From a halophilic archaeon SHRA6 (lineage in GTDB: Archaea; Halobacteriota; Halobacteria; Halobacteriales; Haloferacaceae), in assembly GCA_005239175.1 (NCBI GenBank), contig ML241294.1:879275-943274 (forward strand): a DNA stretch of 64,000 nt. The letters run 5' to 3'. Shown here piece by piece: positions 25,007 to 37,627 of the stretch. Under the pieces are notes generated by a model that did no database searches, was not told the origin of the DNA, and was given only the letters and a program-made list of their open reading frames with translations. A program made the translations under genes and the position numbers. The first letter of the stretch is position 1. Every line of letters begins with the position of its first letter.

Positions 25007-25048
25007 ATGAATGAACCGAAGGCACTGACCAGGAGGGGAAAAACATGA
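25007..25048 (+). CDS. 13-codon leader ORF overlapping pilB
   Basis: A 13-codon frame (MNEPKALTRRGKT) preceded at 7-10 bases by GGAGGAGTGA. Its TGA overlaps the pilB ATG in the arrangement ACATGA, so translation of the two would be coupled. The upstream frame is closed by a stop at 24965, so this is not the tail of a longer gene. It may be a regulatory leader peptide or a chance ORF; the paired ribosome-binding-like sequences favour real translation. Confidence 0.35.
   Translation: MNEPKALTRRGKT
25031..25038 (+). promoter_or_regulatory. Shine-Dalgarno site of pilB
   Basis: AGGAGGGG lies 6 bases before the ATG at 25045. This is unusually strong for this genome, where many genes look leaderless, and it fixes the pilB start. 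Confidence 0.7.
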
Positions 25049-27873
25049 GCGGGGATACAGTCGAGTCAGGATCGATCGAGAGCACGTTACCGCTCGATGC
25101 TGAGACCTCCGAAGAGCGAGCCGTTCGCGGCGAGTACACGTGGAAAGACTTCATGCGCGAGCATGAATACGGTGAGCAGGTTGAACTGCTCTACCGGGAC
25201 ATCGACTCGAAAAACGCGTGGAACGATGTGCTTCCGTTTTTCAACGGGAGCCGTCGGGGCGTCCCTGGCAGAGACGACTGGGACCGCATCGAGTTCGATC
25301 CAGCAACGTATCTCGGGTGTCCACCGCACGTGTTTGAAGCGCGTTTGCGTGCGGCTGCGAACGCGGGTGGACAACTCGATCGTGCGTTCAGACACTGGAT
25401 CGACGAAACACCCGTTACAAAGGGCGAGTACACGTGGGAACACTTCAAATGGGAGTACTACTACGAAAACGGCCGGCCGCCGCGGACCCGAAACGGCGAG
25501 GTGGAGCCATTCGAGCCAGCGCAGTACCTTGGATTCGATCCAAGCGACCTGCGATCGGTGCTCGAGACGGGAGAAAACAGCGCTGAAAAGCTGCTCGAGC
25601 TCGAAGATCGGCGGACAGTAAACGTTAATCCACAGCTAGATGAAGACGAGTTCTTCTCAACGGCAGACGGTCAGACGACGGTCGTAAACCGCTATGACCT
25701 GGAGAAGGCCGTCTCGATGGAGAAGAAGCGACATTTCATCGAGGAAGAACGGTACTGGATTAACAAGCCATACGCGTGCGTCGTTATCTTCCACTCGACA
25801 AAAGAGAACGAGAAGAAATACTACGTGATCGAGCCGTATCTCAACGAAATTGAGACGGATCTCGTCGAGTTCTTCTCTGGAAAACTCCGGACGAGCATCA
25901 AATACTCCGACGAGGACATGGTCGCGCAAGGAACTGACGAACAGCGTCGAGACGTTCTCGAATCGGAAACCGAGTGGTTGATTGATCGAAACAATCTCCG
26001 CGCGCCCACCGAAGAGCCAGACTCGTCGAAGCGATCGCACAAAGCCCGCAAAGAGCTGAACATCGAGCCGTTACTCGAACGGCTCGATCGGATGGACGCG
26101 CCGTGGCTTCCCGATCGCATCCGTGCAGTCTTGGGTACTGATGAAACGCCAGATCCACCGAGCGAGGAGCCCAAGACGATCACCAAAATCCTGGCCCGGC
26201 CGGAGCCTGCGGTGCTTGCGGAGGATTCGGGGACACTGACTGAGTACCAGATTGAAAAACTCCTCTACGTAATCCGACGTGATTTCATCGGTTACGAGCG
26301 GATCGATCCGATCAAACACGACATCAACGTCGAAGACATCTCCTGTGACGGGTACAACTCGCCGGTTTTCGTCTATCATACCGACTACGAAAACCTGATC
26401 ACGAACATTCGACACGGCAAAGAGCGGTTGGATAACTTCGTGATAAAGCTCGCCCAACGCTCCGGAAAGGGGATTTCGAAACGGCAACCACAGGTCGATG
26501 CGACCCTGCCCGACGGATCGCGTGCACAGTTGACGCTCGGAAAGGAGGTCTCCGATCACGGGACCAACTACACGATCCGACAGTTCAACGACGTCCCATT
26601 CACGCCGGTCGATCTCATCAACTGGAAGACGTTTAGCCTCGACGAGATGGCCTTCCTGTGGCTCTGTATCGAGAGTAAGAAATCGCTCATCTTCGCCGGC
26701 GGAACCGCCTCGGGGAAGACGACCAGCCTGAACGCAGTGTCGCTTTTCATCCCGTCGAACGCGAAGATCGTTTCCATCGAGGATACGCGGGAGGTTGAGC
26801 TTCCGCAACGTAACTGGGTTGCAAGCGTGACGCGTCCCTCGTTCAGCCAGGACAACGCCGGTGACGTCGACGAGTTCGATCTGCTCGAAGCGGCACTCCG
26901 GCAGCGCCCAGACTACATCGTCATGGGCGAGGTCCGCGGCGAAGAAGGCCGAACGCTGTTTCAGGTGATGTCGACCGGTCATACGACGTACACGACCTTC
27001 CACGCCGATACCGTGGACGAGGTGCTCAAGCGGTTTACGACGGATCCGATCAACGTCTCGAAGACGTTGTTTACCGCGCTGGATCTCGTGTCGGTACAGA
27101 CACAGACCAAGGTGCAGGGCAAGAAGGTTCGCCGGAACAAGACGATCACCGAGATCAACTCGTACGATTCAGAAAACCACGAGATCAGCGTCCAGGACAT
27201 CTACCAGTGGCAGCCCGAAGACGACGAGTTCAGACAACACGGGAACTCGAAAAAGCTCGAAGAGATCGCCTTCGATCGTGGCTGGTCGATGACAGAGCTC
27301 GAAGCCGAACGGTTCGAGCGCCGGACCATCCTCTCGTACCTGATCAAAAACGGGCTCAACAGCTACACGGAGGTCGCAGCGACGCTGCAGGCGTACATCA
27401 ACGACTCCGAGACGATTCTGACACTGATCGCCAACGGAGACCTCGAAGCAAGTCTCGAGGATCTCCGCGAAATGGAATCAGTGCTGATCGATGTCGATCC
27501 CGAAAAGGAGGCGTTGGTCCCGCGTCCAGAGCCCAGCGAGGACGTTCTTGCCGAGGCAGAGCAGGTTCTTGAGACCGCCGAGAGCCGCATCTTCGAACAG
27601 TACCGGGGGCAGTCTTCGGGGAGTCTACTGGACGCACTCTCGAAGGCCGAACCCGAAGCAGACGTCACCGTATCCGAACAGTCCGACAGACAAATTCTGG
27701 CGTCTGTGAGCGACGAATCAGTCGGAACCCCGCCGGCGGAACCAGCGGTTGGTACCAATGGTGACTCGATCGACGCTGAGTCAGAACCAATCACAGAGCC
27801 ATCCGAAGTAGTCGATTCCGACACGGACGTCGGAGCGACTGGAACAGAAGCCGAACAACCAGAGGAGAAATAA
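25045..27873 (+). CDS. pilB: Type IV pilus assembly ATPase (PilB/GspE family)
   Basis: A 942-residue cytoplasmic secretion ATPase that powers pilus polymerisation at the inner face of the membrane. The N-terminal ~190 residues contain two copies of a unit starting 'GEYTW' (near residues 30 and 131). The ATPase core has Walker A 'GGTASGKTTS' at ~551, Asp box 'SIEDTREVELP', Walker B region 'DYIVMGEVRGEE' at ~621 and His box 'TGHTTYTTFHAD' at ~645. A long acidic tail follows. It is longer than bacterial PilB (~570), as is usual for haloarchaeal PilB3-like proteins. The P1-like gene follows after 3 bases and pilC after that. Confidence 0.95.
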   Translation: MSGDTVESGSIESTLPLDAETSEERAVRGEYTWKDFMREHEYGEQVELLYRDIDSKNAWNDVLPFFNGSRRGVPGRDDWDRIEFDPATYLGCPPHVFEARLRAAANAGGQLDRAFRHWIDETPVTKGEYTWEHFKWEYYYENGRPPRTRNGEVEPFEPAQYLGFDPSDLRSVLETGENSAEKLLELEDRRTVNVNPQLDEDEFFSTADGQTTVVNRYDLEKAVSMEKKRHFIEEERYWINKPYACVVIFHSTKENEKKYYVIEPYLNEIETDLVEFFSGKLRTSIKYSDEDMVAQGTDEQRRDVLESETEWLIDRNNLRAPTEEPDSSKRSHKARKELNIEPLLERLDRMDAPWLPDRIRAVLGTDETPDPPSEEPKTITKILARPEPAVLAEDSGTLTEYQIEKLLYVIRRDFIGYERIDPIKHDINVEDISCDGYNSPVFVYHTDYENLITNIRHGKERLDNFVIKLAQRSGKGISKRQPQVDATLPDGSRAQLTLGKEVSDHGTNYTIRQFNDVPFTPVDLINWKTFSLDEMAFLWLCIESKKSLIFAGGTASGKTTSLNAVSLFIPSNAKIVSIEDTREVELPQRNWVASVTRPSFSQDNAGDVDEFDLLEAALRQRPDYIVMGEVRGEEGRTLFQVMSTGHTTYTTFHADTVDEVLKRFTTDPINVSKTLFTALDLVSVQTQTKVQGKKVRRNKTITEINSYDSENHEISVQDIYQWQPEDDEFRQHGNSKKLEEIAFDRGWSMTELEAERFERRTILSYLIKNGLNSYTEVAATLQAYINDSETILTLIANGDLEASLEDLREMESVLIDVDPEKEALVPRPEPSEDVLAEAEQVLETAESRIFEQYRGQSSGSLLDALSKAEPEADVTVSEQSDRQILASVSDESVGTPPAEPAVGTNGDSIDAESEPITEPSEVVDSDTDVGATGTEAEQPEEK

Positions 27874-27876
27874 CCC

Positions 27877-28200
27877 ATGGAATACGCATACGCGACGCTA
27901 CTACTGAACGAGTCGAACCAAGAGATCAACGAAAAAAACCTGACTGCGGTGCTGGAAGCGTCAGGAAATACAGTCGAGGCATCCCGGATAAAAGCGCTTG
28001 TTGCCGCGCTCGAGGGAGTCGACCTCAACGACATTGCCGACGATATCGACAGCGACGGGGGCGATCCCACAGCGCTGACCGATCCTCACAGCAACGGGGA
28101 CGCAGCGACCGCAAAAGAGACCGACGTCGATACGCCGCCGGATGAAGACAGCGATGAGTTCGAGTTCGAACCGAGCAACGAGGCGGCCACGGAGAGCTGA
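27877..28200 (+). CDS. Ribosomal stalk P1/L12-like protein inside the pilus operon
   Basis: A 107-residue acidic protein whose first ~55 residues match the archaeal P1 (L12) dimerisation domain: 'MEYAYATLLLNES', 'INEKNLTAVLEASG', 'VEASRIKALVAALEGVDLND'. An acidic linker follows, as in true P1, but the chain ends 'EFEPSNEAATES' and lacks the C-terminal GLG-LFG motif that recruits translation factors. It sits 3 bases after pilB and 4 bases before pilC, so it is co-translated with pilus genes. It cannot be the normal stalk protein as it stands. It may be a dimerising adaptor for the pilus machinery; that role is inference. Confidence 0.85.
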   Translation: MEYAYATLLLNESNQEINEKNLTAVLEASGNTVEASRIKALVAALEGVDLNDIADDIDSDGGDPTALTDPHSNGDAATAKETDVDTPPDEDSDEFEFEPSNEAATES

Positions 28201-28204
28201 TGAA

Positions 28205-30241
28205 ATGAGCACGAAGCGCGTTACCGCCCCCGACAAAAACCGACAATCGCACGTCGATAGCCTTGCGGACGCGTTTGAGCCGGTGTACGATTTGTTGTTC
28301 GACGAGGGAAGCTCGTTCGTCATCGACTTAGAGCGGAAACTCGCCGAGGCTCGAATGAGCGACTCCGTCGAAGCGTACCTCTCGCGGGCGCTCGCGCTCG
28401 GTCTCGTAAGCGGCCTCCTGTTGTGGCTGATCGGTGTAGCCGGTAGCGCGGCGGTGATATGGACCGGAACCATAGAAGTCGGAGCGCTGACCGGAATGCG
28501 GATTCCGAACGAGACGATCCTGAACGTGATCCAGACGATACGGGTTCCACTGTTGATCATTTCGACTGGACTTGTACTCGGGGGGATTGGATTCTCCACG
28601 GTGTTTGGTGCCTACATTGCGCTTCCCTACAGTCGAGCGTCGAACCGGGAGCGCGAAATCAACACACTGCTTCCCGATGCCGTGTCGTTCATGTACGCCC
28701 TTTCGCTCGGTGGGATGAGCCAAGTAGAGATTATCGAAACGATGGCAGAGGCCCAGGACACCTACGGCGAGGTCTCCCAGGAGTTCCGAACTATCCTCCA
28801 GGAGACGCGCTATTTCGATACGGACTACCGATCGGCGATACAGAAGCGTTCGGCACAGACGCCGAGCGCCGAGTTGAGCCAGTTTTTCACTGATATGCTG
28901 TCGATCATCGACAGCGGTGGGAGTATGACCGAGTTTCTCGACGACAAGAAGGACATCCACTTCCGGACAGCCAAAGAGGGACAAGAACAGGACCTCGAGA
29001 CGCTTGAGCTGTTCAGCGAAATGTACATCACGCTCTCGTTGTTCCCCTTGCTTTTGATTGTGATTCTTGTCATTTTAGATATGATCGGCGGCGGACAGAC
29101 GATCCTGCTGTACGCGACGGTCTACGCACTGATTCCAGGACTGGGGATCGCATTTTTGGTCATTGTTTCGACAGTCCGAACGGACGAACCCGGTGACGGC
29201 TACCTCGATTACGGCAAAAGTGAACGACGGTTCGAAGACGGACGAGAATCAGGAGCCCTGGGATTAGGGCTGATCAACCAGTTCAAGGGGTCGTACTACA
29301 TCTTCGATCGAATCGCAAAAAGCGAGGGGACGAACGAGGCGATCGAGGTTATCAAACGGCCGCACGTCTTCCTCCGTAAGCATCCGTTTTACACGCTGGC
29401 AGTGACCGTTCCGGCAGCACTCGCATTCGTGGTCGTCGCCGCGGCCACGGGCTCGGTCCCAATCTCGTGGAATGGAGTCGTCGACCGGCCCGTCTGGTCG
29501 ACGATCGTCTACGTGTATGCGCCGCTGTTTATGATCTGTATTCCGCTTTCGGCCTTCTGGGAGTGGAACGTCCGGCGGCGTCGGGCTGTGCTCAATGGCC
29601 TCTCGGAGAACCTCCGAAAGCTGGCGAGCGCGAATGCGACCGGGCTCACGCTACTGGAGTCGATCAAAGTGGTCGCCGATACGACACCGGGGAAGCTCGG
29701 TGAAGAGTTCGATACCATGTACGCGAAGAGTCAGTACGGGATGCATCTCAAGGAGTCGCTAGTGGTATTTAATAACAAGTACCACATCCCGCGGCTGGCG
29801 CGAACGGTGAAACTCATCGGCAAGGCCCAGGAGATCTCGAGTCAGATTTCCTCAGTGCTATCGACGGCCGCGAAGGCGACCGAGACCCAAGAGGACATCG
29901 AGCGCGAACGGCGACAGCGCGCGATGATGCAGGTCGCGATCATTATCATGACGTACCTCACGCTGCTTGGGGTGATGGCACTGCTGAAGGCCCAGTTCGT
30001 CGACGTCATGGCCGAAGTCACAGCCCAGACGGCCGGCACCTCGAACGCCGCAGGACAAAGCTTCGGTTCGACGATGGATCTCAGCCTCCTGACGCTGCTG
30101 TTTTTCCACGCGTTGGCCATCCAGGCGGTTCTCTCGGGGCTGGTCTGTGGCTACATCCGGAACGCGAACCTGGTCTCGGGCGTCAAATACGTCGTGATGC
30201 TTTTGGCCGTCTCACTGGGTGTGTGGATGGTGATCGCATGA
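28205..30241 (+). CDS. pilC: Type IV pilus membrane platform protein (PilC/TadC family)
   Basis: A 678-residue polytopic protein with two T2SSF-type halves, each containing a helical cytoplasmic domain and TM helices ('ALGLVSGLLLWLIGVAGSAA', 'MYITLSLFPLLLIVILVILD', 'VAIIIMTYLTLLGVMALLKA'). It forms the inner-membrane platform on which PilB acts. I place the start at ATG 28205 ('MSTKRVTAPDKNRQSH'), four bases after the P1-like stop; the frame extends to 28142 but would overlap that gene. The stop overlaps the next gene's ATG (ATGA). Confidence 0.94.
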   Translation: MSTKRVTAPDKNRQSHVDSLADAFEPVYDLLFDEGSSFVIDLERKLAEARMSDSVEAYLSRALALGLVSGLLLWLIGVAGSAAVIWTGTIEVGALTGMRIPNETILNVIQTIRVPLLIISTGLVLGGIGFSTVFGAYIALPYSRASNREREINTLLPDAVSFMYALSLGGMSQVEIIETMAEAQDTYGEVSQEFRTILQETRYFDTDYRSAIQKRSAQTPSAELSQFFTDMLSIIDSGGSMTEFLDDKKDIHFRTAKEGQEQDLETLELFSEMYITLSLFPLLLIVILVILDMIGGGQTILLYATVYALIPGLGIAFLVIVSTVRTDEPGDGYLDYGKSERRFEDGRESGALGLGLINQFKGSYYIFDRIAKSEGTNEAIEVIKRPHVFLRKHPFYTLAVTVPAALAFVVVAAATGSVPISWNGVVDRPVWSTIVYVYAPLFMICIPLSAFWEWNVRRRRAVLNGLSENLRKLASANATGLTLLESIKVVADTTPGKLGEEFDTMYAKSQYGMHLKESLVVFNNKYHIPRLARTVKLIGKAQEISSQISSVLSTAAKATETQEDIERERRQRAMMQVAIIIMTYLTLLGVMALLKAQFVDVMAEVTAQTAGTSNAAGQSFGSTMDLSLLTLLFFHALAIQAVLSGLVCGYIRNANLVSGVKYVVMLLAVSLGVWMVIA

Positions 30242-30750
30242 GCGAGCCACGACGATCGATGGAGCAAACCGAACGCGGACAGACGCTTCCAGATTTCGCC
30301 GTCGGCATCGCCATCTTTCTGCTTACGGTCACATTCATCGCCGTATTCGTCCCACAGCTTACACTTCCGTTCGAGGATCAAGAACAGCCAGTCGTTGCCG
30401 AGCGGATCACGAACGATGTAACCAAGAACCTGCTCGCGGATCCGCAAGCACCCTCGAAACTGAACGAGAGCCGAACGATCGCGTTCTTCGAGGAGGAACT
30501 GGCGGCTGACCAACTCGGGATCGACCAACGCTATTCGGTAAACATCACGCTCAGGGATCTCCCGAGTGACGACCCCGACTCGGCGGTGCTCTGTACAGAC
30601 GAAGCCGATGAGTCGATTACCAACTGCGGCGACGGGACGGAACTCGCCGCCGGACCGCCGGTACCCGAAGACGATCGGTCAGTCAGCACTGCCAAAACGG
30701 GCGTGTTCACCGGTGAAACCAGCGCTGTACTCGAAGTCAGGGTGTGGTAA
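30238..30750 (+). CDS. Pilin-like protein 1 of the pilus operon (DUF7287-type)
   Basis: A 170-residue protein with a short basic leader, then 'RGQTLPDFAVGIAIFLLTVT', the pattern of an archaeal prepilin: a cleavage site for the PibD peptidase just before a hydrophobic helix that packs in the filament. The rest is a polar extracellular domain. The ATG at 30238 overlaps the pilC stop. It is the first of five consecutive pilin-like genes and probably encodes a minor pilin or an assembly initiator. Confidence 0.88.
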   Translation: MSEPRRSMEQTERGQTLPDFAVGIAIFLLTVTFIAVFVPQLTLPFEDQEQPVVAERITNDVTKNLLADPQAPSKLNESRTIAFFEEELAADQLGIDQRYSVNITLRDLPSDDPDSAVLCTDEADESITNCGDGTELAAGPPVPEDDRSVSTAKTGVFTGETSAVLEVRVW

Positions 30751-30751
30751 T

Positions 30752-31357
30752 ATGTCTGATCGTGGCCAAACATTCACACTGGAAGCGTTCGTGGCAGCAA
30801 TCCTGCTTGTAGCGACTGTCGGCTTCGCGCTGCAGGCCGTTGCGGTCTCTTCGAACACCGCGAGCGCTGGCGAGACAGAGCTCAAAAGCCAGCATGGAGG
30901 CCTCGCCGAGGGCATCCTCAACGAGGCCGCCTCGAACGGCTCACTCCGGACGACGGTCCTGTACTGGAATGAGTCCACCGAAGCGTTCTACAACGCCGAC
31001 AGCGACGGCTATTACACGTCGCAACTTCCCCCGACACCGGATGGCACCGCGTTCGGAGACGCCCTAGAGCGGACGTTCGGGGATCGGCAGGTTCGATACA
31101 ACGTCAACCTGCACTATCAGGATTCGGCTGGCGATCGCCAGACCCAGAAGCTGATCGAATCCGGAACTCCCAACGACGATGCCGTCCGCGTCGTCGAGAC
31201 AGTAACCCTGTACGACGACACCGTACTCGTCGACGAGAACGAGGATCCGACGGAGACGTCGCTTGCGGACGCCGAGGAAAGCTTCTACGCCCCGAACGTT
31301 TCGGAGGAGGGTCCGTTGTACAACGTGATCCGAGTGGAGGTGGTTCTATGGAGCTAA
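30752..31357 (+). CDS. Pilin-like protein 2 (DUF7288-type)
   Basis: A 201-residue protein, 'MSDRGQTFTLEAFVAAILLV' followed by 'ATVGFALQAVAV'. The N-terminal hydrophobic helix follows an R-G-Q prepilin-type cut site. The extracellular part is acidic with 'NESTEAFYNADSDGYY'. The start is the ATG two bases after the previous stop. The 3' end overlaps the next gene by ten bases. Likely a minor pilin. Confidence 0.88.
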   Translation: MSDRGQTFTLEAFVAAILLVATVGFALQAVAVSSNTASAGETELKSQHGGLAEGILNEAASNGSLRTTVLYWNESTEAFYNADSDGYYTSQLPPTPDGTAFGDALERTFGDRQVRYNVNLHYQDSAGDRQTQKLIESGTPNDDAVRVVETVTLYDDTVLVDENEDPTETSLADAEESFYAPNVSEEGPLYNVIRVEVVLWS

Positions 31358-32310
31358 CAGCGCCGAATGACAATCGAGGACAGATACTGCTCGTCTCCGC
31401 GATCGGCCTCGCAATTTTGCTCACTGCACTGGCATTAACGCTGAATACGGCCGTATTTGCGGGCATTCACGCCGCGGAGGCCGATGACAGCCGTAACGCC
31501 GAACGTGGCGCGATTCAGTATCAACACAGCGCAGAGCGGGCAGTAGCGGGGCTCATCGTCGAGATCAATCAGGAAAACGAGACATACGAGAGCCTAGAGA
31601 GTGAACTCGCTGCGGCGATCGCTGACTGGGATAGCCTCTCGCGATCGGAATACGCACGCGACGGACAAACGACGAACAGCTCGCTGGAGCGTGTGAAATA
31701 CGAAACTCGAGTCGTACAGGACGAATCGGGCGATTTCAGCGATCACGCGGGGAATACGACGTGGATCGTCGCCGACAACGTTTCGGAGGTCCGTGGGTTC
31801 GAGATGGAGGTAGACGAAGAGGCACTCGTCGAGACAAGCGACTGTACTGGTTCAGACGCGTGTTTCAGTCTGCTAGTCGAGGGGGCCGACGGAGAGTCCT
31901 GGCGGCTCTACGTGTATGATGACGGAGGCGTGCATATCACCGTTGAATCGTCGTCGGGAGACACCGAAACGTACGAGTCAACCGATTCGTCAGCAAAACT
32001 CAACATCACTGAGGGGGCCTTTGACGTCAATGGATCCGATGAAGCGTTCACGACGTTTCTCGACGACGAACTGGAGGGACCGTACACGCTGACATACACG
32101 AACGCGGGCAACGTCAGCGGAACCTACGAGCTTACCGTCGACGGAAAGATCGTCGATGACACGATCGAGGCCGACGATCGATACAGCGTAGATGAGACAC
32201 CGAAGATACACGCGAAGATCGTCGCCGCCGACGTTGCGCTCCGGTACCGATCCGCGGACCTGACCTACGAATCCGAGGTCGAAGTTGTTCCGGGTGAGAC
32301 ACATGAATGA
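31348..32310 (+). CDS. Pilin-like protein 3 (DUF7261-type)
   Basis: A 320-residue protein with 'NRGQILLVSAIGLAILLTAL' at the N-terminus, a prepilin-type helix, and a long beta-rich exterior domain containing 'AERAVAGLIVEINQENETYE' and repeated Thr/Ser/Asp-rich strands. It is the largest of the five pilin-like products. It overlaps both neighbours, showing tight coupling. Probably a minor pilin or tip component. Confidence 0.88.
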   Translation: MELTAPNDNRGQILLVSAIGLAILLTALALTLNTAVFAGIHAAEADDSRNAERGAIQYQHSAERAVAGLIVEINQENETYESLESELAAAIADWDSLSRSEYARDGQTTNSSLERVKYETRVVQDESGDFSDHAGNTTWIVADNVSEVRGFEMEVDEEALVETSDCTGSDACFSLLVEGADGESWRLYVYDDGGVHITVESSSGDTETYESTDSSAKLNITEGAFDVNGSDEAFTTFLDDELEGPYTLTYTNAGNVSGTYELTVDGKIVDDTIEADDRYSVDETPKIHAKIVAADVALRYRSADLTYESEVEVVPGETHE

Positions 32311-32782
32311 CCGCGGCGTCTCTTCGGTCGTGAGCTACGTCCTCGTTTTGGGGATTGTGGCGCTGTTGACGTCGACGCTCGTCACCGGGTTCGCACCGTT
32401 CGTCACCAGCCAACAGGATGATTCGGTCCGCGACACGTTCGAAGTGTTGGGCAATGACATCGCCGGAGATGTTAACAGCGCGGATCGGCTTGTAGCGGAA
32501 GCCGGAGAGAACGGAACGGTCGAACTCAGGACGCGACTGCCCGATCGGGTTGGCGGAACCACCTACGAAATCGAGTTCCACAACAAAACCAGCGAGCGCG
32601 ACGCCGCCGGGTACCACTACGATATCGAACTTCGAAGTGACGAGTCGGAGACGACTGCCACGGTGCCCGTCCGGTCAGATCGGCCGGTCGAGACAGAGCC
32701 GGCGGTCCTCACGGGTGGAAACGTGGAAATCAGACTCGGTGACGACGGTGACAAGACAACGTTGGTGATCGAGAATGCATAA
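32303..32782 (+). CDS. Pilin-like protein 4 (DUF7266-type)
   Basis: A 159-residue protein starting 'MNDRGVSSVVSYVLVLGIVA', where G-V-S after a charged leader matches the archaeal prepilin cut site, then 'LLTSTLVTGFAPFVTSQQDD'. ATG 32303 overlaps the previous gene's end by eight bases; the longer frame from 32285 would add an unlikely leader. The exterior part is beta-rich ('GTTYEIEFHNKT'). Confidence 0.88.
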   Translation: MNDRGVSSVVSYVLVLGIVALLTSTLVTGFAPFVTSQQDDSVRDTFEVLGNDIAGDVNSADRLVAEAGENGTVELRTRLPDRVGGTTYEIEFHNKTSERDAAGYHYDIELRSDESETTATVPVRSDRPVETEPAVLTGGNVEIRLGDDGDKTTLVIENA

Positions 32783-33530
32783 TGACAGTCGAGGCCAAAG
32801 CGAACTCCTTGGCTTTCTGTTGATTTTCGTGGTCGTGGTGCTCACCATCGCACTGGTGAGTGCAACCGGGTTCGTCGGTCTCAACAACGCCCAGGACTAT
32901 CAGCGGACCACCAACACCGAGGGGGCCTTCACCGTCCTGGCGAGCAACATCGAGGACGTGACACAACTGGGCGCGCCCAGCCGTTCGACTGAGATCAGCA
33001 TAACTGACGCGTCGCTGTCGATCAACGAGGAGCGTTCGAGTCTCAACATCTCGCATGACGGCGAGGCGCTCGACCTCGGCAATGACGGACAGACTGGGTC
33101 GATCGTCTATGATTCGGGGACGGACACGACACTGACATACCGGAGCGGCGCGCTGATCCGCGAGGACAGCGGGAGTCCGGTGCTGTTTCGAGAGCCGGAT
33201 TTCGTCATCACTGACGAGGAAGTGATCCTTCCGATTGTCCAGCTGTCCGCAGCGGGAACGAGCGAGGTCGGCGGGACGTCGGACGTCAATGTCCAGTCGA
33301 TCGGTAATGGGACTGACCTGGTCGCCGAGAGCGAGCCCGTCGACACCAATGTCACACTCGTGGTCGAAACGCCGCACGTTCGTGTCTGGGAACGGTACTT
33401 CGAACAGTTTGAAGCCGACGGACCTGTCACCGACATCAATCCCAATTACGAGGAGAACACGGTTACGGTCGAAATCGAAACCGATCGACTCACCGTAACG
33501 GTCGATCGGGTCGACACGACGTTCCGGTGA
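32775..33530 (+). CDS. Pilin-like protein 5 (DUF7289-type)
   Basis: A 251-residue protein: 'MHNDSRGQSELLGFLLIFVV' and 'LTIALVSATGFVGLNNAQDY' form a prepilin-type leader and helix. The exterior domain contains 'HVRVWERYFEQFEADG', a region that also appears in diverged form ('CHGWKQFFESETEG') in the product of 35828-37627, suggesting common descent. It is the last gene of the pilB operon and overlaps the previous one by eight bases. Confidence 0.88.
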   Translation: MHNDSRGQSELLGFLLIFVVVVLTIALVSATGFVGLNNAQDYQRTTNTEGAFTVLASNIEDVTQLGAPSRSTEISITDASLSINEERSSLNISHDGEALDLGNDGQTGSIVYDSGTDTTLTYRSGALIREDSGSPVLFREPDFVITDEEVILPIVQLSAAGTSEVGGTSDVNVQSIGNGTDLVAESEPVDTNVTLVVETPHVRVWERYFEQFEADGPVTDINPNYEENTVTVEIETDRLTVTVDRVDTTFR

Positions 33531-33935: not shown

Positions 33936-34562
33936 TTATGCGATTTTTCGCGTGACGTCGACGGTAACGTCGCTGGTCAGATCGAGTTCGATCGATTCCG
34001 GCAGGGCCCGTCCGCCCCGGAACTTTGGGATGGAGAGGCTGTTTGTGAGGTGGCCGCCCCGGAGCTCCGTCGAGAGATCGAAAATGATGTCCGCGAGGTA
34101 CTCGGTCCGATCGCGCTGATCGGGGACGCGACGGCCCTCCAGACAGTGAAGCAGCGTGAGGCTCCCGGTCTCGGCGGTTCGGGTCTTCAGCTCGTTGAGG
34201 AAGGTTCGGTAGGCGTCTATCTCCGTCTCCTCGAACAGTTGGATTGGATCGATGATCAGCGTCCCCGCCTCCGGGAGCGTCTCGATCGCCGTGGTTGCTT
34301 CCTCGAGTGGGGCCTCGGCCGAGATTCGATGGACGCTGATATCGTCGGTTGGCGTTCCCGTCCGCTCGAGACCGTCGATGATGTCCGCTTCGGTCCGCTC
34401 GGTCGTGAGGTACACCGATGGCCGGATCGCAGCCATCTCGTAGAGAAACAGCTCGGATTGACTGACCGGCGACGCCAAAAACGCGAGCACGCTGCCCTGC
34501 GGAAGGCCGCCATCGAGTTCGCGATCCAGGACTTCGATCCCGGTCGAGAGGACCGTGGTCAT
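33936..34562 (-). CDS. RecA/KaiC-fold protein with a degenerate P-loop (DUF7125-type)
   Basis: A 208-residue cytoplasmic protein with the RecA/RAD55-like layout 'LSTGIEVLDRELDGGLPQGS', but where Walker A should stand it reads 'FLASPVSQSELFLYE', lacking the G-x4-GK-S/T residues. A Walker B-like 'GTLIIDPIQLFEE' is kept. It is therefore probably a non-hydrolysing regulator. It lies on the opposite strand between the pilus operon and the pilin genes; related proteins are often found near haloarchaeal pilus or archaellum genes, so a role in controlling them is plausible but inferred. Confidence 0.8.
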   Translation of the reverse strand: MTTVLSTGIEVLDRELDGGLPQGSVLAFLASPVSQSELFLYEMAAIRPSVYLTTERTEADIIDGLERTGTPTDDISVHRISAEAPLEEATTAIETLPEAGTLIIDPIQLFEETEIDAYRTFLNELKTRTAETGSLTLLHCLEGRRVPDQRDRTEYLADIIFDLSTELRGGHLTNSLSIPKFRGGRALPESIELDLTSDVTVDVTRKIA

Positions 34563-34918: not shown

Positions 34919-35329
34919 ATGAAACTGAATAAGTTGAAACAACTGTTCGCAGAAGAACGAGCTGTCTCGCCTGTCGTGGGCGTGGCGCTCTTGATCGCTA
35001 TCACAGTAATCCTGGCCGCCGTCATTGGCGGTGTCGTCCTCGGGATCGGCCCCACTGGTGCAGACGCACCGCAAGCGCAGCTGACTGCTGATTTCGGTGA
35101 GAATAATACCACCATATCGCACAACGGTGGAGATGAGATTTCAGGAGACGAGGTCGTCGTCCGTAATGAAAGCGGCGAAATCAATAAACTCGGTGAACTC
35201 GCCGATGGTAAGAATCTCTCCGCGGGTGAGAGTACCGATATTGGTGATGGTAACGAGACCGTGGTGACTATCGTCTGGCAAGACCCCAACAGCAACAGTG
35301 AATCTGTGATCGCAGAATTCGAAGAGTAA
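34919..35329 (+). CDS. pilA: Type IV pilin, PilA-type
   Basis: A 136-residue prepilin. After a basic leader ('MKLNKLKQLFAEERA') comes the canonical haloarchaeal pilin helix 'VSPVVGVALLIAITVILAAV', which PibD would expose by cleaving before VSPVVG. The mature head domain is acidic and ends 'IVWQDPNSNSESVIAEFEE'. Such proteins polymerise into surface filaments for adhesion. A second pilin gene with the same layout follows 23 bases downstream. Confidence 0.92.
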   Translation: MKLNKLKQLFAEERAVSPVVGVALLIAITVILAAVIGGVVLGIGPTGADAPQAQLTADFGENNTTISHNGGDEISGDEVVVRNESGEINKLGELADGKNLSAGESTDIGDGNETVVTIVWQDPNSNSESVIAEFEE

Positions 35330-35352: not shown

Positions 35353-35754
35353 ATGAACCAAATTACAGTCGTATCGGACGATCGGGCGGTGTCGCCAGTC
35401 GTTGGCACGGCGCTGTTGATCGGGATCACGGTAATCCTCGCGTCCGTCATCGGCTCTGTCGTCCTCGGGATCGGGGTCGGCCCGGCCCAGACGCCGCAGG
35501 TGACGCTCTCGTTCGAAGTACCCGACGGTAGCGACGAAATCGTGTTGCGACACGAGGGGGGACCACCCCTCAATTCCGACGAGATTGTCGTGGTTGATCA
35601 AGACGGCAACGAACTGGCCGGACTCGACAAAGACCTGACTACCGGTGGGCAGCAAACGATCGTCGACGATTCGAGCGATGTCGAACGCATTAGCGTCGTC
35701 TGGCAAGATCCAGACGGTGACACAGAAAGCGTGCTGGCGACGTTCAGGCCCTGA
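35353..35754 (+). CDS. pilA: Type IV pilin, second PilA-type gene
   Basis: A 133-residue prepilin, 'MNQITVVSDDRAVSPVVGTA' continuing 'LLIGITVILASVIGSVVLGI'. Its head domain ends 'VVWQDPDGDTESVLATFRP', clearly paralogous to the first pilin. Both probably build the same or alternative filaments using the upstream pilB-pilC machinery. Divergence is mainly in the head region, as expected for surface-exposed residues. Confidence 0.92.
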   Translation: MNQITVVSDDRAVSPVVGTALLIGITVILASVIGSVVLGIGVGPAQTPQVTLSFEVPDGSDEIVLRHEGGPPLNSDEIVVVDQDGNELAGLDKDLTTGGQQTIVDDSSDVERISVVWQDPDGDTESVLATFRP

Positions 35755-35827: not shown

Positions 35828-37627
35828 ATGGAAGACGAGACAGTTGAAACGAACGATCGGCGTATTGGTCTGCGCGACGACGAGCGTGGCGCTTCGGAAG
35901 TAATTGGCGTCGTGCTACTGATCGGTATCGTCCTCCTGGGTATGGCTACGATCCTGCTGCTCGCCGGGCCGCAGCTGAGCGCAGAGCAACAAGGCGCCGA
36001 GGTGCGCCAGGCAGAACAGTCGCTGACGGAGTTTGATTCGCAGGCGGCACGCGTTGCACGTGGCAGCACCGGCGCACAGCGGACCGATCTCGGACTGCGG
36101 GGCAATAGCGGAACGCTCGATGTGGAAAACGAGACGGGACACATCACCGTCGTGTATGACGACTACTTCGATCCCGCGAACAACACCGAGGTGATGAATA
36201 CGTCGATGGGCACGATGGTCTACCGGCAGGGCGACACGACGGTCGGATACCAGGGCGGTGGCGTCTGGCGAAGTGACGGAAACAACTCGGTGATGGTCTC
36301 CCCGCCGGAGATCAGCTATCGGGATGGCACGTTGACGATGCCGGTCACCAAGACAACGCGCACGGGCAGCGTGCACAGCGATGTGTTTGTTGCCCGTGGA
36401 GGGACCACCGAACGGTTCCCGACGGAGAACAAGACCAACAAGATCACCGGTGACAAAGCAATAATCATCACCATAGAGAGTGAGTACTGTCACGGCTGGA
36501 AGCAGTTCTTCGAAAGCGAAACCGAGGGGATCGTCGACGCCAATTGTGAGGAGAATACGGTCCAGGTCATTTTCATCGCGTTGCCGAAGGACTTCTCTCC
36601 GGAGGCCGGTGTGATCGCGACCTCTGGCCCCGGTGAGATCAGTCTGGAAGGTACTGGCGCCTACGTCGACAGCTACAACTCACCGGGATACGATGGCGGC
36701 GATTCGAACGGCGTCGTCGAGGCGGCCGGCGATGTCAAAATGTCCGGAGATTCGCAGATCGACGGTGACGTCAGATCGGGGCGAAATATAACCATTGGCT
36801 CCTCAAGTGCCCAGATCAACGGGAACGCCAACTGGACGAAGAGCTTTGACCCGTTCGACAATGAGTCGATCACCGGAAATGATTACGAGATCGACGGTAT
36901 TACCGAGCTCCTGCCGATCAATCGGCTGGTAGACAACAAGACCGACCAGTTGAGAACCAACAACGACAACAATGTCGCCGGAGAAGACGACGACCTGATC
37001 CAAGACGAGACGCTCGAAATCGATGGCGATGAGGCGACCCTCGAGGCAGGAGAGTATTATCTCGACACGCTCGAACTCAACGGTGAAACGCTGTATCTCG
37101 ATACGACAGACGGAGATATCACGATCGCCGTCGAACGGTGGGTGAAACTCAGCAGGGAAGGAGGCGACTCCAGCGAGATCGTCGTCAAAGGTGACGGGGA
37201 TGTTCGGCTCTTTGTCGCGAGCAAAGAGAAGACCAGCGTCGATAACGTCCAGGGAGCCGGCGGCGCAGGGTTCAGTGAGGGCCACTTTGTCGTCGAGAAG
37301 TCGGGGATAACTGGCGTCGACAAGGATTCAACACGCGTCCAGGTGTTTGGTCCCAATAACTTTGTGGGAGTGATCGGCGGTGGCAGCGATACCGAAGTGA
37401 CTGCTGCGATAATCGCTCCGGCAGGGAGATTCGGCCCTGGCAAATTCTATGTGAAAAAGGGCGAGCTGTTCGGGGCGGTCGCAACCGGTGAACTAACACT
37501 CGGCCAGGATGGCAAGGTGCACTTCGATCGAGCACTGATGGACGAGGAGATACCACTCGCGCCGAACGTGCCACGGATCGAATATCTGTACCTCACTGAG
37601 GACGAGATTGAGGTCGGCGGAGGGTAG
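35828..37627 (+). CDS. Large pilin-anchored adhesin-like protein (DUF7289/DUF7305-type)
   Basis: A 599-residue protein. A charged leader is followed by 'ERGASEVIGVVLLIGIVLLG', a prepilin-type cut site and helix. Residues ~50-265 are similar to the DUF7289 pilin-like protein upstream. From ~270 to 590 the sequence is Gly/Asp/Asn-rich with short strands ('SGPGEISLEGTGAYVDSYNS', 'VEAAGDVKMSGDSQIDGDV', 'GFSEGHFVVEKSG'), suggesting a right-handed beta-helix. It could ride on the pilus as a tip adhesin. The ATG at 35828 is preceded by an AT-rich promoter region at 35790-35815. Confidence 0.88.
   Translation: MEDETVETNDRRIGLRDDERGASEVIGVVLLIGIVLLGMATILLLAGPQLSAEQQGAEVRQAEQSLTEFDSQAARVARGSTGAQRTDLGLRGNSGTLDVENETGHITVVYDDYFDPANNTEVMNTSMGTMVYRQGDTTVGYQGGGVWRSDGNNSVMVSPPEISYRDGTLTMPVTKTTRTGSVHSDVFVARGGTTERFPTENKTNKITGDKAIIITIESEYCHGWKQFFESETEGIVDANCEENTVQVIFIALPKDFSPEAGVIATSGPGEISLEGTGAYVDSYNSPGYDGGDSNGVVEAAGDVKMSGDSQIDGDVRSGRNITIGSSSAQINGNANWTKSFDPFDNESITGNDYEIDGITELLPINRLVDNKTDQLRTNNDNNVAGEDDDLIQDETLEIDGDEATLEAGEYYLDTLELNGETLYLDTTDGDITIAVERWVKLSREGGDSSEIVVKGDGDVRLFVASKEKTSVDNVQGAGGAGFSEGHFVVEKSGITGVDKDSTRVQVFGPNNFVGVIGGGSDTEVTAAIIAPAGRFGPGKFYVKKGELFGAVATGELTLGQDGKVHFDRALMDEEIPLAPNVPRIEYLYLTEDEIEVGGG

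Follow-up and report, generated by a model that had tools for sequence, protein, structure and literature searches.

The pilB-P1L-pilC locus

The window, a stretch of 64,000 nucleotides from the halophilic archaeon SHRA6, contains a type IV pilus operon in which a small gene, referred to here as P1L (P1-like gene between pilB and pilC), separates the genes of the assembly ATPase and of the membrane platform. The P1L reading frame starts with an ATG codon and encodes a protein of 107 amino acids. It begins 3 nt after the TAA stop codon of pilB (27871-27873) and ends 4 nt before the ATG codon of pilC at position 28205, which bears out the slot in the pilus operon that an earlier note on this DNA had described. 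The genes of the locus are the following:

25045..27873, forward strand: pilB, type IV pilus assembly ATPase with T2SSE and PilB3_C domains, 942 aa (PF00437, 2.3e-30; PF23989, 4.3e-8)
27877..28200, forward strand: P1L, dimerisation domain of the aP1 type over residues 1 to ~57, followed by a variable acidic tail without GLG-LFG (PF00428, TIGR03685, 3a1y_A, AF2/Foldseek)
28205..30241, forward strand: pilC, T2SSF/TadC-type membrane platform of the P1-associated branch, 678 aa (PF00482, 5.5e-26)
30238..30750, forward strand: DUF7287 gene, putatively pilin-like, overlapping the pilC stop codon (PF23958, 1.7e-31)
30749..31357, forward strand: DUF7288 gene (PF23959, 9e-57)
31348..32310, forward strand: gene with a weak DUF7261 match (PF23922, 0.0012, below cut-off)
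32285..32782, forward strand: DUF7266 gene with a pilin-like N-terminus (PF23928, 7.9e-25; PF07790 Pilin_N, 0.019)
32775..33530, forward strand: DUF7289 gene (PF23960, 1.4e-50)
33936..34562, reverse strand: DUF7125 gene, KaiC/ArlH-like with a degenerate Walker A motif (PF23442, 2.1e-58; PF06745 KaiC, 4.1e-10)
34919..35329, forward strand: type IV pilin (PF07790 Pilin_N, 8.4e-20)
35353..35754, forward strand: type IV pilin (PF07790 Pilin_N, 1e-18)
35828..37627, forward strand: large pilin-like protein with DUF7289 and DUF7305 domains (PF23960, 2.7e-32; PF23981, 1.9e-26)

The census of archaeal type IV pili describes a PilB4 type represented by HVO_1160 (PMC4858521), and from this census the window operon is assigned, by ourselves, to the PilB4/PilC4 type. 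In common with operons of this type it has a euryarchaeal pilB-pilC pair, PilB being extended, and is followed by pilin-like genes of its own, but it differs in that pilB and pilC, which elsewhere overlap or abut, are separated by P1L and in that an extra DUF7125 gene is linked to them. The text of the census (PMC4858521) makes no mention of a ribosomal protein or of L12, and searches of the main text of open-licence papers found no account of a pilus operon with a P1-like gene. The set of a secretion ATPase, a TadC-like platform and a KaiC-like protein (PilB, PilC and DUF7125) is also reminiscent of the ArlI-ArlJ-ArlH motor of the archaellum, from which it is distinguished by the addition of P1L and by a DUF7125 protein that is only distantly ArlH-like. 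To our knowledge P1L has no counterpart in the archaellum.

P1L carries a stalk dimerisation domain without the factor-binding motif

The earlier note had likened the first ~55 residues of P1L to the dimerisation domain of archaeal P1 (aP1/L12p), a stalk protein of the ribosome, and profile searches confirm this. The PF00428 profile matches P1L with E=1.2e-9 and 39 bits, above its gathering score of 28.1, and P1 from P. horikoshii (PDB 3a1y_A) is matched with E=1.2e-13. The archaeal P1 model TIGR03685 scores 75 bits (E=5e-21), which falls short of its equivalog cut-off of 100 bits. Judged by these sequence scores the homology to archaeal P1 is far above chance, and a direct count over residues 1-49 gives 35 of 49 identical residues (71%) between P1L and the P1 of its own genome. 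That canonical P1 (G000:C2:167056-167352) is located directly downstream of uL10 and ends in SGEGLGSLFG, so P1L is not the only P1 gene of the genome. Of the two outcomes that the earlier note had named as refuting it, a profile search without a significant match and a genome lacking any other P1 gene, neither came about. The remaining ~50 residues of the window P1L are acidic and lack the GLG-LFG motif, as had been claimed, and a search for this motif in all 12 P1L copies found none.

AF2 models of three P1L sequences place helices at residues 2-12, 19-28, 35-46 and 50-59, matching the N-terminal four-helix domain of aP1, with pLDDT values of 69-82 by block over residues 1-50 and about 50-60 in the tail. 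The sole significant PDB match of a Foldseek search with the model is again 3a1y (E=3.5e-4). The predicted fold is of moderate confidence and is called mainly from sequence. A column comparison with 61 canonical P1s indicates that residues 1-29 and 36-49 are largely kept and helices 1-3 conserved, while residues 31-35 and those from 50 onward, which include helix 4, have diverged; the helix-3 hydrophobics (V/I38, V/L/I41, V42 and L45) are retained in most P1L copies. In P1/P2 proteins the dimer interface is formed by helices 1, 2 and 4, and helix 3 faces the spine region of P0 (PMC4379515), which would imply that P1L has retained the spine-facing helix and the larger part of the dimer core, but not helix 4. 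Since helix 4 is the most diverged and forms part of the interface in P1/P2, the dimerisation of P1L could be altered. The N-terminal domain is under purifying selection according to its dN/dS ratios (NG86), which range from 0 to 0.28 in six pairs, with dS saturated for the pair of the window and L198.

The tail is acidic in most copies and highly variable in length and charge. The G029 copy is a bare domain of 62 amino acids with no tail at all and the G257 tail is neutral with 8 acidic and 8 basic residues, so the constant element of P1L is the domain and not the tail. The acidic linker of the earlier note is therefore present in the window P1L but not essential, and the acidic tail as a conserved functional element is ruled out by the same two copies. 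At locus L165 (4087-7835) the PilB tail contains about 11 copies of PTSEAMDE and the P1L tail a repeated PAMED, so that both neighbours expand repeats.

A tree of P1 N-terminal domains, built to date the duplication, groups 9 of the 11 P1L rows, whereas the long rows L164 and L209 fall elsewhere and most forks are unresolved. A single origin of P1L is not provable from this gene tree because it comprises only 57 columns.

Occurrence of the insertion in haloarchaea

Within the family 170 genomes were surveyed and within the order 392, together 468 distinct species genomes; pilB-P1L-pilC is found in 12 of them (2.6%), distributed over four families. Besides the window genome, its own family contributes G066, G039, G041 and G029; family f4 contributes G403, G405, G423, G443 and G401, and families f12 and f14 one genome each, G306 and G257. 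G170 and G171, reached via L026 (Halomicroarcula rubra) and L050 (Halomicroarcula sp. SYNS111), are apparently identical to G443 and G423. The sister species G001 does not have the P1L insertion. In each of the 11 genomes where the region read includes both genes, 2-6 nt separate the pilB stop codon from the start of P1L, as against the P1-negative operons, in nearly all of whose 77 loci pilB and pilC overlap or nearly abut.

The G257 copy, from an incomplete MAG, was predicted from PilC identity alone: among the PilCs beyond the cases already established, that of its locus L209 matched best (64% identity), and P1L was then found before pilC. A contig of a Halococcaceae MAG (L015) carries DUF7125 and pilB and breaks off after the first 36 nt of a P1L gene whose start and upstream residues are those of the G257 case, for which it provides the other half. 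General haloarchaeal pili do not need P1L, since only 2.6% of the sampled genomes have it. The same insertion in 12 genomes of four families, which the earlier note had proposed to look for and which is tied to a single pilB-pilC subtype, makes it appear that one kind of pilus machine has taken on a part of the ribosome.

P1L follows one PilC lineage and perhaps the C-terminal part of PilB

All 11 P1-positive rows of an 82-row PilC tree lie on one side of a single branch (SH-aLRT 93). Mapped on this tree the presence of P1L requires 1 change, compared to 10.5 in shuffles, and none of 500 shuffles is as good. The P1-negative PilCs group by family, as vertical inheritance would give. In a PilC search of the 392 genomes, two strong matches per genome are nearly confined to the P1-positive genomes, which makes the P1L operon a second, accessory pilB-pilC system; the other pilB-pilC pair of the window genome, on contig C3, is ordinary, overlapping and separate from the P1L operon. 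G344, G415 and G455 have two PilCs without P1L, which represent other duplications. By sequence P1L is co-inherited with the pilus core, both in its restriction to one PilC branch and in the prediction of the G257 case from PilC similarity. Together with DUF7125, pilB-P1L-pilC makes up a distinct, horizontally patchy subtype of haloarchaeal type IV pili.

In a PilB tree of 41 rows the P1-positive rows and the P1-negative L005 are set off from all others by a 97% branch. L005 (5932-10721) is a chimera. Its PilB is of the P1-positive lineage as far as about residue 480 and of the P1-negative lineage from about residue 640; its PilC is wholly of the P1-negative lineage and the P1L gene is missing. 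L005 is a single MAG contig and may be a natural or an assembly chimera. Taken at face value, it suggests that P1L accompanies PilC and the C-terminal half of PilB rather than PilB as a whole.

The PilB C-termini also differ in composition. P1-positive PilBs have 0-1 aromatic residues (F/W/Y) among the last 50, compared to a mean of 2.5 in P1-negative ones (p=2.5e-6, uncorrected for phylogeny), and the window PilB, which has an N-terminal extension, ends in an acidic tail without the aromatic motif of most P1-negative PilBs. The P1-negative PilB C-termini (L005-L084) have long acidic tails with short aromatic motifs, such as DFGQFVPKAG, WGFG and repeated SIF/SLF, that differ by family and are possible docking motifs. 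That P1L tails supply the aromatic motif which P1-positive PilBs lack is true of some copies only (EFEFEP, LDTLF, LDALF, RFIFE) and stays a lead.

The DUF7125 companion gene

A DUF7125 gene is linked to the P1L operon in 12 of 12 P1-positive genomes, downstream of the pilB-P1L-pilC cluster proper or divergently upstream of it. None was found within about 6 kb of 77 P1-negative pilB loci (0/77), some of which are incomplete. A stand-alone DUF7125 gene is present in all 15 genomes examined, P1-negative ones included; the four P1-negative genomes checked have one stand-alone copy each, and the P1-positive genomes have at least one further DUF7125 gene, beside the P1L operon. The Walker A motif of the window protein is degenerate (ASPVSQSE), its matches to ArlH/FlaH and KaiC are weak, and its AF2 model is of low confidence (pLDDT 49).

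P1L as a proposed accessory subunit of a pilus motor

The reading that we favour, with a probability of roughly 0.55, is that one subtype of haloarchaeal type IV pilus motor has the exapted N-terminal dimerisation domain of P1 as a dedicated accessory subunit, which would dock to the C-terminal region of PilB or to PilC and bridge the motor. The P1 domain would have been duplicated out of the ribosomal stalk and kept in the pilus operon. P1L would dimerise through its retained helices in the manner of aP1, dock with the helix-3 surface, which is the uL10-spine face in aP1, onto a helix in PilC or in the C-terminal region of PilB, and thereby bridge or stabilise a PilB-PilC(-DUF7125) motor complex in which the variable tail is of secondary importance. 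Against this docking speaks that no segment resembling the uL10 spine was found in PilB or PilC. At the level of sequence, the domain, the loss of the motif, the slot between pilB and pilC, the co-inheritance with a PilC lineage, the extra DUF7125 gene and the purifying selection are established, and a role of P1L as a PilB adaptor is compatible with these data; the interpretation of the earlier note as a whole is thus partly supported. A more tentative idea is that the stalk architecture, a P1 dimer on a helical spine, is reused in the accessory pilus motor and that canonical P1 might moonlight in trans with the housekeeping PilB-PilC. The latter is proposed because DUF7125 provides a parallel, with a stand-alone copy in each of the 15 genomes and an extra copy at the operon.

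The main rival to an accessory motor subunit, which we regard as unlikely, is that P1L has kept its binding to uL10, or pairs with canonical P1 in a heterodimer, and acts on the ribosome. It would either dilute the factor-binding tails and slow translation while the pilus operon is expressed, or tether ribosomes to the pilus assembly site for pilin synthesis. Such a role would account for the conserved core of helices 1-3, with helix-3 hydrophobics that in P1 meet the uL10/P0 spine region (PMC4379515), and a profile of the uL10 spine helix built from 4 sequences finds no mimic in any PilB or PilC (best E 0.64). However, the genes with which P1L is associated are those of one PilC lineage with its DUF7125, not translation genes; the copies of G029 and G257 are strongly diverged, and the product of a low-abundance operon would presumably have little effect on the large ribosome pool. 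It is also rather improbable that P1L mainly recruits the linked DUF7125 protein, as an ArlH/KaiC-like regulator, to PilB, by analogy with the recruitment of ArlH to ArlI in the archaellum. The invariable linkage of DUF7125, the extra copy in P1-positive genomes and the weak ArlH/FlaH and KaiC matches speak for this analogy, whereas the position of the gene outside the pilB-P1L-pilC cluster, the stand-alone copies even in P1-negative genomes and the low-confidence model speak against it.

The great variability of the P1L tail in length and charge is what might be expected of a passenger, that is a non-functional P1 duplicate which was inserted between pilB and pilC by chance and persisted; this is very improbable given that 12 deeply diverged genomes share the slot, and given the intact reading frames, the dN/dS values of 0 to 0.28 and the single PilC lineage. 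The good match of the N-terminal domain to aP1 would likewise suit a functional ribosomal stalk protein serving as a backup P1, an explanation to which we give hardly any credence. Every P1L copy is missing the factor-binding motif, which genuine second P1 copies of other haloarchaea retain, and canonical P1 is present at its usual uL10 locus and kept in the checked P1-positive genomes (in the incomplete MAG G257 it was not found).

Extraribosomal roles of ribosomal proteins are usually a matter of moonlighting by the ribosomal copy. P1L is instead a separate conserved gene, away from uL10, which comprises the stalk dimerisation domain only and is bound to a single type of pilus motor. The exaptation of a translation-stalk domain by a secretion machine can here be tested directly. 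Annotation pipelines for genomes probably label such genes '50S ribosomal protein P1' and in this way hide them. In bacteria, PilB as the pilus assembly ATPase has small accessory cofactors such as PilZ-FimX and SgmX (reviewed in PMC11656802). Their folds are unrelated to that of P1L, and the analogy is functional only.

Other P1-related genes in haloarchaea

Roughly a dozen genomes, most of them from family f7, have a second full-length P1 gene with GLG-LFG (L186, L188 and L190-L197). Many of these second genes have an 'LHEA' signature and they are located away from pilB/pilC where checked. An open reading frame at L163 (4669-5817, G164:C5) contains two tandem diverged P1-like domains, and pilus genes do not adjoin it. 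At L182/L200 (G173:C34) two opposed P1 copies are situated about 330 bp apart, one of which has an altered tail (DLGGLFGDGEEEG).
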